From the NCBI GenBank assembly GCA_013003535.1, contig JABDIY010000049.1:124001-188000 (forward strand): a stretch of DNA of 64,000 nt, read 5' to 3'. The translations under genes and the position numbers were made by a program. The DNA is from Acidimicrobiales bacterium. Lineage in GTDB: Bacteria; Actinomycetota; Acidimicrobiia; Acidimicrobiales; SZUA-35. The notes beneath the pieces were generated by a model that was not told the origin of the DNA, did not search any database, and saw nothing but the letters and a program-made list of their open reading frames with translations. Shown here in pieces: positions 35,183-38,135 of the stretch. Within the stretch, counting starts at the first letter, position 1. Every line of letters starts with the position of its first letter.

Positions 35183-35794
35183 ATGAACCCCGGAGAGGAG
35201 ATGGTGGAGGTCGTCGACGAGGACGGCATTGTCATCGACGTCGTCAGCCGGGCGGAGATGAGAGCGGGCGTTCTGCGTCATCGTTCAACCTACGTCGCAG
35301 TTGTGCGACCCGATGATCGTCTGGTGGTTCATCGCAGGGCGGATTGGAAAGACATCAACCCGGGCTACTGGGACATCGCTTTCGGGGGTGTGGCCGGCGT
35401 GGGTGAGAGCTGGCCTATGGCGGCAGAGAGAGAACTAGCCGAAGAGGCCGGCGTGGTCGACGTGCCACTGACAGACCTCGGCCGCGGTGCATACGATGCC
35501 GAGGATGGCCACATCGTTGCGGCACTATTTCTTGCGCGCACCGACAAGCGCATCGTTCCCGAGGACGGCGAGGTGGTCGAGATCGGCGAGGTTCCACTCA
35601 GCGATCTCGACGCATGGGCCCGTTCTCACAACGTGTGCGGTGACAGCATGGCCCTCATAGCGCCATTCCTTCGGCAATTGGCGGCGACTGTCCCTGATGA
35701 GGACGCTCACCGCCAGGGAGACCGGCCTATTCGGCCCAGCAGCAACTCCACCGAATCGCCAAGTCCAGACTGCTCAAAGAACCTCAACCCTTAG
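35183..35794 (+). CDS. NUDIX hydrolase, IDI/YfcD-like
   Basis: The Nudix box is complete: G, then five residues, E, then seven residues, RELAEEAGV (around residues 73-95). The N-terminal EVVDEDGIVIDVVSRAEM and HRSTYVAVV resemble the isopentenyl-diphosphate isomerase-like and YfcD subgroup, which hydrolyse assorted nucleoside or isoprenoid diphosphates; the exact substrate is not predictable. The last 30 residues are low complexity. Its stop overlaps the 3' end of the convergent selenoprotein gene by 4 nt. Confidence 0.87.
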   Translation: MNPGEEMVEVVDEDGIVIDVVSRAEMRAGVLRHRSTYVAVVRPDDRLVVHRRADWKDINPGYWDIAFGGVAGVGESWPMAAERELAEEAGVVDVPLTDLGRGAYDAEDGHIVAALFLARTDKRIVPEDGEVVEIGEVPLSDLDAWARSHNVCGDSMALIAPFLRQLAATVPDEDAHRQGDRPIRPSSNSTESPSPDCSKNLNP

Positions 35795-36399
35795 AGGTTG
35801 GCTACAAGCTCCAGAACCTCGGTCTCGGGGTATCGACCCAGCCAGCCCTTGACCGGGTCCCCGTTTCGGTCCACCAAGATCGCTGTTGGCTGCGCTCTCA
35901 CCTGGTAGTAACTCCAAGACGTGAATGATTCATCCCAAATCATGGTGAAACCTGTTGTTCCGGTGTCCTGTTGGAAGACCTGGGCTTCCGGGAAGCTGTC
36001 CTGCGCGCCCATTCCCACCACTCGGACGATGTTGGCATTCTCACGAGCGAACCGCTCGACGCCAGGGGCTTCGCCCCGGCACGTGGGTCAATGAGGCGCC
36101 CAAAACCACAGAAGCACCGGGAGTTCACCGCCGGATAGCTCGGACCTGAGGTTGAGAGACTCACCGGTTGCGACGCTCAAGACATCGAGATCCGGGAACA
36201 GGTTGATGGTTTCGCCACCACGGCCCACAGAATCTGGTGGATTAGTGATCGCCGTTTCCGCGGGCTGCTCGACACCACAGGCGGTCAAGAGAAGCGACGC
36301 CACCAAAGTAACCGAGACGATCAAGCGACGGCGGGGACGGATTCGCACCGCGGGGAGATCGCCCGCACTCCTAGAAATTCGTCGGACTAGCGCTCTCAC
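35791..36399 (-). CDS. TlpA/thioredoxin-like lipoprotein, probable selenoprotein (UxxC, in-frame TGA at 36088-36090)
   Basis: Read through one in-frame TGA, this frame gives a 202-residue lipoprotein. It has a basic leader and hydrophobic segment ending in lipobox LTAC (near residue 41), then a TlpA-type thioredoxin domain. Around the TGA the protein reads WFWAPH-U-PTCRGEAP, placing Sec104 exactly at the first cysteine of CxxC and Cys107 at the second. Downstream hallmarks are intact: RVVGMGAQD, the cis-proline QPTAILVDRNG, and GWLGRYPETEVLEL. A stem-loop follows the TGA (36061-36080). It should act as a thiol-disulfide oxidoreductase outside the membrane. Sec use is inferred; a Cys-to-stop mutation or sequencing error is the alternative. 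GTG start; divergent from a molybdopterin oxidoreductase. Confidence 0.8.
36061..36080 (-). promoter_or_regulatory. Candidate bacterial SECIS stem-loop
   Basis: On the mRNA, GCCGGGGC pairs with GCCCCUGGC around a GAA loop: 5 bp, a bulged U on the 3' side, then 3 bp. The loop begins with G and starts 16 nt after the UGA, at the near edge of the distance known for bacterial SECIS elements. All of it is also coding sequence. Confidence 0.55.
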
Positions 36400-36530: not shown

Positions 36531-38135
36531 ATGACCACCACCCCTTTCCCAACCAGCACAAATCACCCGGTGCGCCACCCGCCCAGCTGGTGGGCGGGAG
36601 CGATCGCCGGCATGGCCGCTGGAGGGACGGCTCTTGCGGTAGGTGAACTCGCCGGTGCGCTGGCAGCGCCGAAACCCGGCCCGGTGATCGCAGTGAGCAA
36701 TCGGGTGATCGAGCATGCACCGGTCTGGTTTGTGAACTTCGGGAAACAGGTCTTTGGTCTCGCCGACAAGCCGGCACTTATCGCGGGAACACTGATCCTG
36801 TCGATCTTGTTCGCTGCTGGCCTTGGCGTCATCTCACTTCGTAGCCGGGTCGTCGGCGTGGCTGGCATCGCCGCCTTCGGTGTTTTGGGTCTGATCGCCA
36901 TGGGTGTCGATCCGCAAGGGGGATGGGTTTACGCGGCCGCCGTGTCGCTGGCTGCGGTGGTGGCTGGGGTCGTGTCGCTTCTCGCCCTACTTCGTCGGGT
37001 CCCGAGAAACGAGGTGCCCGATCTGGAGAATCCCATTTCTGCCCGCCCGGTTGAACGGCGAACATTTCTCGGCTGGGCGGCGGCTATGGCAGCCGCAATC
37101 GGGGCGGTAGCAGTGGGAGCAAATCAGCTACGAGGCCGCGCCGCCGTCGAGTCCGCTCGCGACGAGGTGGAACTCCCGACCGAGGTTGGCGAAGCGGAGA
37201 TCCAGGCACAGGTATCGGCCGCAGTCGCCAGTGAGGTTGCGAATACTCCCGGAATCGCCGATCTCATTACTCCCAACGATGAATTTTATCTCATCGACAC
37301 AGCCACGCTGGTGCCGCAGGTGGATCCATCGTCATGGGAGCTGACGATCAAGGGAATGGTGGACCGGGAGGTCACCTACACATACGACGACCTCCTCGCC
37401 CGCGCCTCCACAATCGCCCCGGTGACGCTCAGCTGCGTTTCGAATGAAGTGGGCGGTCAGCTGGTGGGAAATGCTGTCTGGCAGGGAGTACCGCTGAGCG
37501 AACTCCTCGATGAGGCCGGCGTCCAGACCGGAGCCACCCAGATTCGCAGTCAGTCGGTCGATGGTTGGGACTGCGGATTCCCTACCGATGCCGCCTTCGA
37601 TGGGAGAACGGCGTTGGTGGCGATTGCAATGAACGGCGAGCCTCTTCCCGTTGACCATGGCTTCCCCGCTCGCCTGGTGGTTTCAGGACTCTATGGGTAC
37701 GTCTCAGCCACGAAATGGCTCAAGGAGATCGAACTCACCACGTGGGAAGCATTCGATGGGTTCTGGATTCCTCGGGGTTGGTCCAAATCGGGGCCGATCA
37801 AGACCCAATCGCGAATTGACACTCCCCGGAATGGCGAAACGATTTCGTCCAGCGGTGCCGCCGTTCCGATCGCCGGGGTGGCATGGGCACCCAATCTGGG
37901 GATCGAGCGGGTCGAGGTTCAGATTGACGATGGCGACTGGTTCGAGGCCACACTCGGTGAATCCTTGGGGGACGACAGTTGGCTGCAGTGGTCCTTGGCT
38001 TGGACGCCCACACCGGGCCAACATCGGATCCGTGTTCGGGCCACCGATGGCACCGGCGAAACCCAAACAAGCGAAGTCGCCCGCCCTGCGCCAAACGGAG
38101 CCTCGGGCTGGCACACCATCACCGTAAAAGCCTGA
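36531..38135 (+). CDS. Membrane-anchored molybdopterin-dependent oxidoreductase (sulfite oxidase family)
   Basis: A 534-residue protein with four or five transmembrane helices in the first 165 residues, then a twin-arginine-like VERRTFLGWAAAMAAAIGA that may form a further Tat-type anchor, then the sulfite oxidase/YedY molybdopterin domain with the molybdenum-ligand cysteine in TLSCVSNEVGG. A C-terminal Mo-co dimerisation domain follows (IDTPRNGETISSSG onward). It probably reduces or oxidises small oxyanions or oxidised amino acids outside the membrane; the substrate is unknown. GGAGCAAG precedes the ATG. Divergent from the selenoprotein lipoprotein, suggesting a common extracytoplasmic redox theme. 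Confidence 0.9.
   Translation: MTTTPFPTSTNHPVRHPPSWWAGAIAGMAAGGTALAVGELAGALAAPKPGPVIAVSNRVIEHAPVWFVNFGKQVFGLADKPALIAGTLILSILFAAGLGVISLRSRVVGVAGIAAFGVLGLIAMGVDPQGGWVYAAAVSLAAVVAGVVSLLALLRRVPRNEVPDLENPISARPVERRTFLGWAAAMAAAIGAVAVGANQLRGRAAVESARDEVELPTEVGEAEIQAQVSAAVASEVANTPGIADLITPNDEFYLIDTATLVPQVDPSSWELTIKGMVDREVTYTYDDLLARASTIAPVTLSCVSNEVGGQLVGNAVWQGVPLSELLDEAGVQTGATQIRSQSVDGWDCGFPTDAAFDGRTALVAIAMNGEPLPVDHGFPARLVVSGLYGYVSATKWLKEIELTTWEAFDGFWIPRGWSKSGPIKTQSRIDTPRNGETISSSGAAVPIAGVAWAPNLGIERVEVQIDDGDWFEATLGESLGDDSWLQWSLAWTPTPGQHRIRVRATDGTGETQTSEVARPAPNGASGWHTITVKA

Follow-up and report, generated by a model that had tools for sequence, protein, structure and literature searches.

Tandem hairpins behind an in-frame UGA suggest a composite SECIS element in an Acidimicrobiales thiol:disulfide oxidoreductase gene

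According to the bSECIS model, a bacterial SECIS element has an apical loop of 3-9 nt with a G in one of its first two places (mostly as G[G|U]), is located 16-37 nt from the UGA, and has a minimum free energy (MFE) of -7.5 kcal/mol or below, as given in the available part of PMC13188914. In the E. coli element, the distance from the UGA to the start of the recognised stem is 11 nt, and the loop bases G23 and U24 matter, as does the bulged U17 (PMC8659212, available part). The kind of protein that we describe here is already known, as UxxC selenoproteins of the Thiol-disulfide isomerase-like (cd02966) and Redoxin (PF08534) families are found in Table 1 of PMC13188914, in the part of that source available to us. 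Here, we analyze a 64,000 nt stretch of DNA from an Acidimicrobiales genome (the window), where a gene with an in-frame UGA contains two consecutive hairpins behind it (Table 1). Throughout, n counts the nucleotides after the UGA, and the corresponding window position is 36088 - n on the minus strand. It is quite probable that the two hairpins together form a composite SECIS element: hairpin 2 would be read by SelB, hairpin 1 would be an accessory part, perhaps a folded spacer, and the UGA would be decoded as selenocysteine (Sec).

Table 1. Positions of the gene, its in-frame UGA and the two hairpins within the window
Feature	Position	Strand	Basis
Predicted selenoprotein gene, TlpA/DsbE/DsbF-like thiol:disulfide oxidoreductase	35791..36399	-	Translation with TGA = U, open to TAA
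In-frame UGA, almost certainly read as selenocysteine U104, in place of the first Cys of CxxC	36088..36090	-	TGA at 104/123 aligned sites
Hairpin 1, probable accessory element or spacer, n8-27, loop GAA, bulged U at n24	36061..36080	-	Region selected to fold
Hairpin 2, probable SelB-recognised SECIS stem-loop, n29-45	36043..36059	-	Covariation; z -2.65
Apical loop of hairpin 2, GGUUC, n35-39	36049..36053	-	RGUU conservation; G[G|U] loop rule

When TGA is translated as U, the gene is open over 202 residues, only one of which, residue 104, is U; its start codon is uncertain, with the GTG at 36399 as the longest option. The protein (P0001) contains a lipoprotein-like signal, LLLTAC, followed by WFWAPH-U-PTC-RGEAP. 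In Pfam, it scores above the cut-offs for both Redoxin and AhpC-TSA (9e-08 for the latter), thioredoxin is also assigned, and no cut-off was reached when it was compared with NCBIfam. In the alignment with its best solved relative, DsbF (PDB 3ios, 3.4e-15), the U stands opposite the first Cys of the active site. A match to the thioredoxin fold and a UxxC motif are both present, which places the protein among the TlpA/DsbE-like oxidoreductases, and it is probably secreted and lipid-anchored, of the TlpA/DsbE/DsbF-like type, with the active site U-P-T-C. The divergent neighbour on the plus strand (36531-38135) codes for a sulfite-oxidase-like molybdopterin protein (PF00174). At gathering score, Rfam identified one tRNA within the window and no match to a SECIS family; Rfam is not known to include a model for bacterial SECIS elements.

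The UGA at 36090-36088 is almost certainly a selenocysteine codon, because it replaces the first Cys of a CxxC motif, the genome encodes the Sec machinery, and most homologous sites are also UGA. A homologue is present in 139 of the 298 genomes of the order (E <= 1e-8) and, among the matches listed, homologues with one TGA are found throughout the order; the genome_contigs scan returned 2 distant Cys homologues only. At the 123 aligned sites examined, we found TGA in 104, Cys in 18 and ACT in one. The ACT sequence (L066, genome G235) has Ser at the second Cys, so that both redox residues are gone. In several relatives, two UGA copies of the gene are neighbours, about 0.6-1.2 kb apart (L030, L032, L037, L038, L039, L040, L045, L048, L072 and L078). 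The window's own genome contains selA, selB, selC and selD, including a tRNA-Sec with the anticodon TCA (UCA; 67.8 bits). The selA and selB genes are next to each other and encode the domains diagnostic of each, among them the C-terminal winged helix of SelB (PF09107). Its SelD itself carries one in-frame UGA, and an FdhA-like molybdopterin oxidoreductase has a UGA preceding H-A-P. Across genomes, the UGA form occurs together with selA, which is present in 79 of 81 UGA-form genomes vs 2 of 13 Cys-only genomes (Fisher p 8e-11, among the matches listed and with the omission of G282, whose listed fragments begin past the site). The two UGA-form genomes with no selA match, G170 and G070, are 83% and 80% complete. 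A preliminary description of this locus had already implied selenocysteine at this codon, and the machinery, the homologous sites and the co-occurrence with selA bear it out.

We compared hairpin 2 across homologues using an alignment of 62 non-redundant UGA members, obtained from 104 by removing three and then thinning the remaining 101 at 85% identity. The three removed sequences (L052, L053 and L130) are divergent paralogues without hairpin 2 in its usual register. A single consensus fold of all 104 members had been rejected (RNAalifold, only -0.93 kcal/mol), and we took these three as the cause of its poor quality. In the window gene, n30-34 pair with n40-44, one basal pair is lost (n29-45 is U.U, but is paired in most homologues), and the loop bases n35 and n39 can also pair, leaving GUU. 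Over the 62 members, the stem n29-34/n40-45 is paired in 97.3% of cells, with 30 double changes vs 5.4 in shuffles (0/500) and a covariation score of 0.301 vs 0.117 in shuffles, a signal that is lost when the partners are slid. The pair n30-44 joins the free third base of a Val, Ile or Leu codon to the middle base that decides between Arg and Gln, and it is C-G in 42 members, U-A in 17, G-C in two and A-U in one. On a tree built without these two columns, parsimony yields 13 changes at n30, 13 at n44 and 13 for the pair, every one of them double; when only well-supported branches are considered, there are just 4 independent pairs, all concordant, a number too small to reach significance (p 0.125). 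The loop is similarly constrained, with RGUU at n35-38 in 101 of the 104 UGA members, AGGU in the other three, and G at n36 in all 104.

Folding was also compared with synonymous recodings that used each gene's own codon usage, in 24-nt sliding windows from -90 to +144. The UGA members have just two peaks, at n7-30 (mean z -1.99 over 62 homologues) and at n28-51 (z -2.65), and elsewhere only the overlapping windows depart clearly. The 18 Cys homologues are flat in the same test, with a value near 0 at n7-30. Hairpin 2 of the window gene is within the bSECIS limits in its loop (GGUUC or GUU), its loop spacing (34-35 nt, near the far end of the 16-37 nt range) and its folding energy (-8.0 kcal/mol). 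Across homologues, the loop is AGUUN or GUU in 62/62; loop, spacing and energy agree jointly with the model in 49/62, and hairpin 2 by itself misses the -7.5 kcal/mol threshold in 13/62. The stem is continuous, without a counterpart of the bulged U17 that characterizes the 5' side of the recognised stem in the E. coli type. Hairpin 2 is most likely the part that SelB reads.

The hairpin's influence extends to the encoded residues. Of the 104 Sec members, 92 contain the motif Q-[FL]-A-[RQ], which hairpin 2 encodes, whereas none of the 18 Cys members does. Codon usage within it departs from the remainder of the same genes: Ala is GCT in 91/100 cases (57/501 elsewhere), Glu is GAG in 89/89 (119/211 elsewhere), Gln is CAG in 98/98 (166/269 elsewhere), and Arg codons end in A in 59/75 (CGA in 34/181 elsewhere). 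Codon choice here appears to be forced, with the RNA dictating the protein; the recognition hairpin appears to set four amino acids, which clearly illustrates how a signal in the RNA can mould a protein.

Hairpin 1 behaves differently. The preliminary description had correctly located a hairpin with one bulged U at 36061-36080, in which we count 8 pairs: GCC and GGGGC on the 5' side, the loop GAA, and GCCCC, the bulged U (n24) and GGC on the 3' side. It had placed this hairpin 16 nt after the UGA, leaving unstated that it is on the minus strand; the loop begins there, but the stem begins at n8, 7 nt after the in-frame UGA. Taken alone, hairpin 1 is not beyond chance. Among 200 dinucleotide shuffles of a 61-nt window around it, 20 matched its folding, and n7-30 of the window gene itself misses p <= 0.05 against synonymous recodings (z -1.96). 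When folded together with the UGA and 33 nt upstream, its upper five pairs have probabilities of 0.35-0.46 and its lower three 0.08; in the full-context fold, hairpin 1 competes with other pairings, and the neighbouring hairpin 2 has probabilities of 0.94-0.97. Across the UGA family, the region of hairpin 1 is well beyond chance and is selected to fold, as the first of the two peaks shows. Since its region is under selection to fold, hairpin 1 is probably a component of the Sec signal and not an accident.

The composite element would operate as follows. The UGA would be followed by about 7 nt, hairpin 1 (36080-36061), a gap of 0-4 nt and hairpin 2 (36059-36043). SelB would bind to hairpin 2, whose loop contains the G-U also needed by the E. 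coli SelB, and would deliver the tRNA-Sec that decodes the UGA as selenocysteine. Hairpin 1 would be a generic stem, free of sequence requirements and selected only for being folded. By folding, it would shorten the path between the UGA and hairpin 2 from 28 nt when unfolded to about 7-11 nt, a distance close to that in E. coli fdhF (11 nt). It would also keep hairpin 2 from mispairing. From the sequence comparisons, Sec insertion, SelB binding to hairpin 2 and a spacer role for hairpin 1 are the most likely interpretation.

A different function for hairpin 1 is rather unlikely, although it competes more closely than any other alternative. Hairpin 1 could be a ribosome-pausing or termination-slowing stem instead of a spacer, with hairpin 2 still being the SelB site; positioned 7 nt after the A-site codon, the stem would abut the mRNA entry and keep the ribosome waiting at the UGA for the arrival of SelB. 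Selection for stability without a fixed sequence or register would agree with such a role, as would the 5' gap between the UGA and hairpin 1, which is 6-13 nt across homologues and most often 7 nt. However, pausing leaves unexplained why the 3' end of hairpin 1 is located at n25-28, adjoining hairpin 2, in 57/62 homologues, and it provides no reason why the FdhA-type gene, with its near recognition hairpin, needs no such stem.

Much less likely is that the hairpin at 36061-36080 is itself the SECIS element, with its loop G and bulged U as the features to which SelB binds, as had been suggested. The hairpin is real, it is near the UGA, it has a G at the start of its loop and a bulged U, and its region is selected to fold. 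However, its register drifts, with most loop centres between n17 and n19.5, and a T at n24, the position of the bulged U, is found in only 8/62 homologues. In the window register, 56.0% of cells pair across the 62 homologues and covariation equals that of shuffles; a second common register is likewise without covariation, and we rejected the hairpin as a conserved element in either one. The bSECIS loop, spacing and energy limits are jointly satisfied by hairpin 1 in only 7/62 homologues (0/25 in SelD), and the window gene is not one of them, as its GAA loop is preceded by 15 nt, just outside the published 16-37 nt. TGA homologues that lack a conserved stem, which the preliminary description had named as the observation that would speak against its proposal, are what we found for the 36061-36080 stem. 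Its broader suggestion of a candidate SECIS directly 3' of the UGA, inside the codons of a redox protein, holds with a change of hairpin, the recognised one most likely being 36059-36043. What seems to be maintained in hairpin 1 is the presence of a stem of some kind and not a particular shape that is recognised.

The remaining alternatives concern the UGA and are extremely improbable. If the UGA were simply a stop, or resulted from an error in sequencing or from mutation in a pseudogene, the downstream frame would be a remnant. This would agree with the normal use of TGA as a stop in this genome, but the identical UGA recurs at the 104 homologous sites in many genomes, the frame behind it is intact and conserved, the Sec machinery is complete, and covariation 3' of the UGA is confined to UGA members. 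Reading of the UGA as Cys or Trp, whether by a suppressor tRNA or because the code as a whole differs, is just as remote: non-UGA homologues do have Cys there, but the UGA form tracks selA, a tRNA-Sec with the TCA anticodon is present, and TGA is the ordinary stop of three neighbouring genes and of selA and selB, so the genetic code has not changed.

The Sec form of SelD, an unrelated protein, has the same architecture as the window gene, with tandem hairpins and a G-U loop behind its UGA, both in the own genome and in relatives. In the own genome, the hairpins are located at n8-26 and n27-43, and the second has the loop GUG. We sampled 30 SelD loci (L131 and L140-L168), comprising 4 Cys loci and 26 UGA loci, of which 25 were taken (L151 was missed). 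Over these 25 sequences, helix 1 is paired in 87.5% and helix 2 in 95.4% of cells, and the two helices together show 25 double changes vs 9.2 in shuffles (0/500). Unlike in the window gene, hairpin 1 of SelD has double changes of its own (4/8 pairs). The synonymous test is stronger for helix 2 (mean z -3.23, p <= 0.05 in 23/25) and weaker for helix 1 (mean z -1.37, p <= 0.05 in 5/25), and the bSECIS limits jointly hold for hairpin 2 in 24/25 sequences and for hairpin 1 in none. Among 10 UGA SelD loci outside the order, inspected by eye, both hairpins appear in the best fold in 5, three more have the hairpin 2 sequence with another fold, and L183 and L184 have neither.

The own genome (G000) contains at least six UGA selenoprotein genes: the window gene (C146), L051 (C145), L052 (C113), L053 (C175), the SelD gene (L131) and the FdhA-like gene (L134). 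Four of them are TlpA/DsbE-like paralogues. Six is the figure used for 'selenoprotein-rich' in the available part of PMC5029168. A covariance model of the UGA and the following 51 nt, applied to the whole genome, yielded four matches below E 0.05, which are the window gene and three UGA paralogues. L052, L053 and L130 are paralogues with WFWAPW-U-[PT][TS]C and, by eye, a hairpin loop GGUC at n27-30; two UGA paralogues in the own genome have this loop at this distance. The FdhA-like gene has one near hairpin with the loop GGUCU at n19-23; in this it resembles E. coli fdhF and differs from the genes of its own genome that have tandem hairpins. The gene types thus have a recognised loop motif in common (GGUC or G-U), but at differing distances from the UGA. 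A folded spacer is present in those two gene types in which the UGA-to-loop distance is greatest.

It is possible, and we put it forward tentatively, that this actinobacterial lineage uses a bipartite SECIS element, in which a sequence-free, folded spacer hairpin precedes a distal recognition hairpin and allows one SelB to read loops at differing distances. The recognition loops would start 19 nt (FdhA type), 27 nt (two UGA paralogues), 34 nt (SelD) and 35 nt (TlpA-like family) after the UGA, and the folding of the intervening RNA would set the effective distance to the ribosome; the spacer idea draws on these four UGA gene types within the own genome only. If hairpin 1 is functional, a bacterial SECIS element can consist of more than one stem-loop, and SelB's tolerance of widely differing distances would be explained. 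Predictors that stop at the hairpin nearest to the UGA could then choose the wrong element, as the first reading of this locus did.

In the literature searched, to the extent that its texts were available and with subscription papers and bioRxiv outside its scope, we found no description of tandem hairpins acting as a bacterial SECIS. The tandem-hairpin architecture appears to be new, and it is plausibly an unreported SECIS variant. The best solved relatives of the window protein, DsbF and MPT53 (PDB 3ios and 1lu4, both presumably mycobacterial), have a CxxC aligned with its UPTC; unlike the window gene, they are Cys forms without an in-frame UGA or SECIS. The known cd02966 and PF08534 selenoproteins share with it a TlpA-like thioredoxin fold with UxxC, a likeness drawn from their listed family only. 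The signal itself resembles the bSECIS model and E. coli fdhF in being a coding-region stem-loop shortly 3' of a Sec UGA, with a small loop that has a G followed by G or U, and the spacing and energy of hairpin 2 (34-35 nt, -8.0 kcal/mol) agree with the former. Unlike in E. coli fdhF, the stem that SelB would recognise starts 28-29 nt after the UGA, not 11 nt, and has no bulged U; and unlike in both, a second, sequence-free hairpin is located between the UGA and the stem-loop most likely to be recognised.
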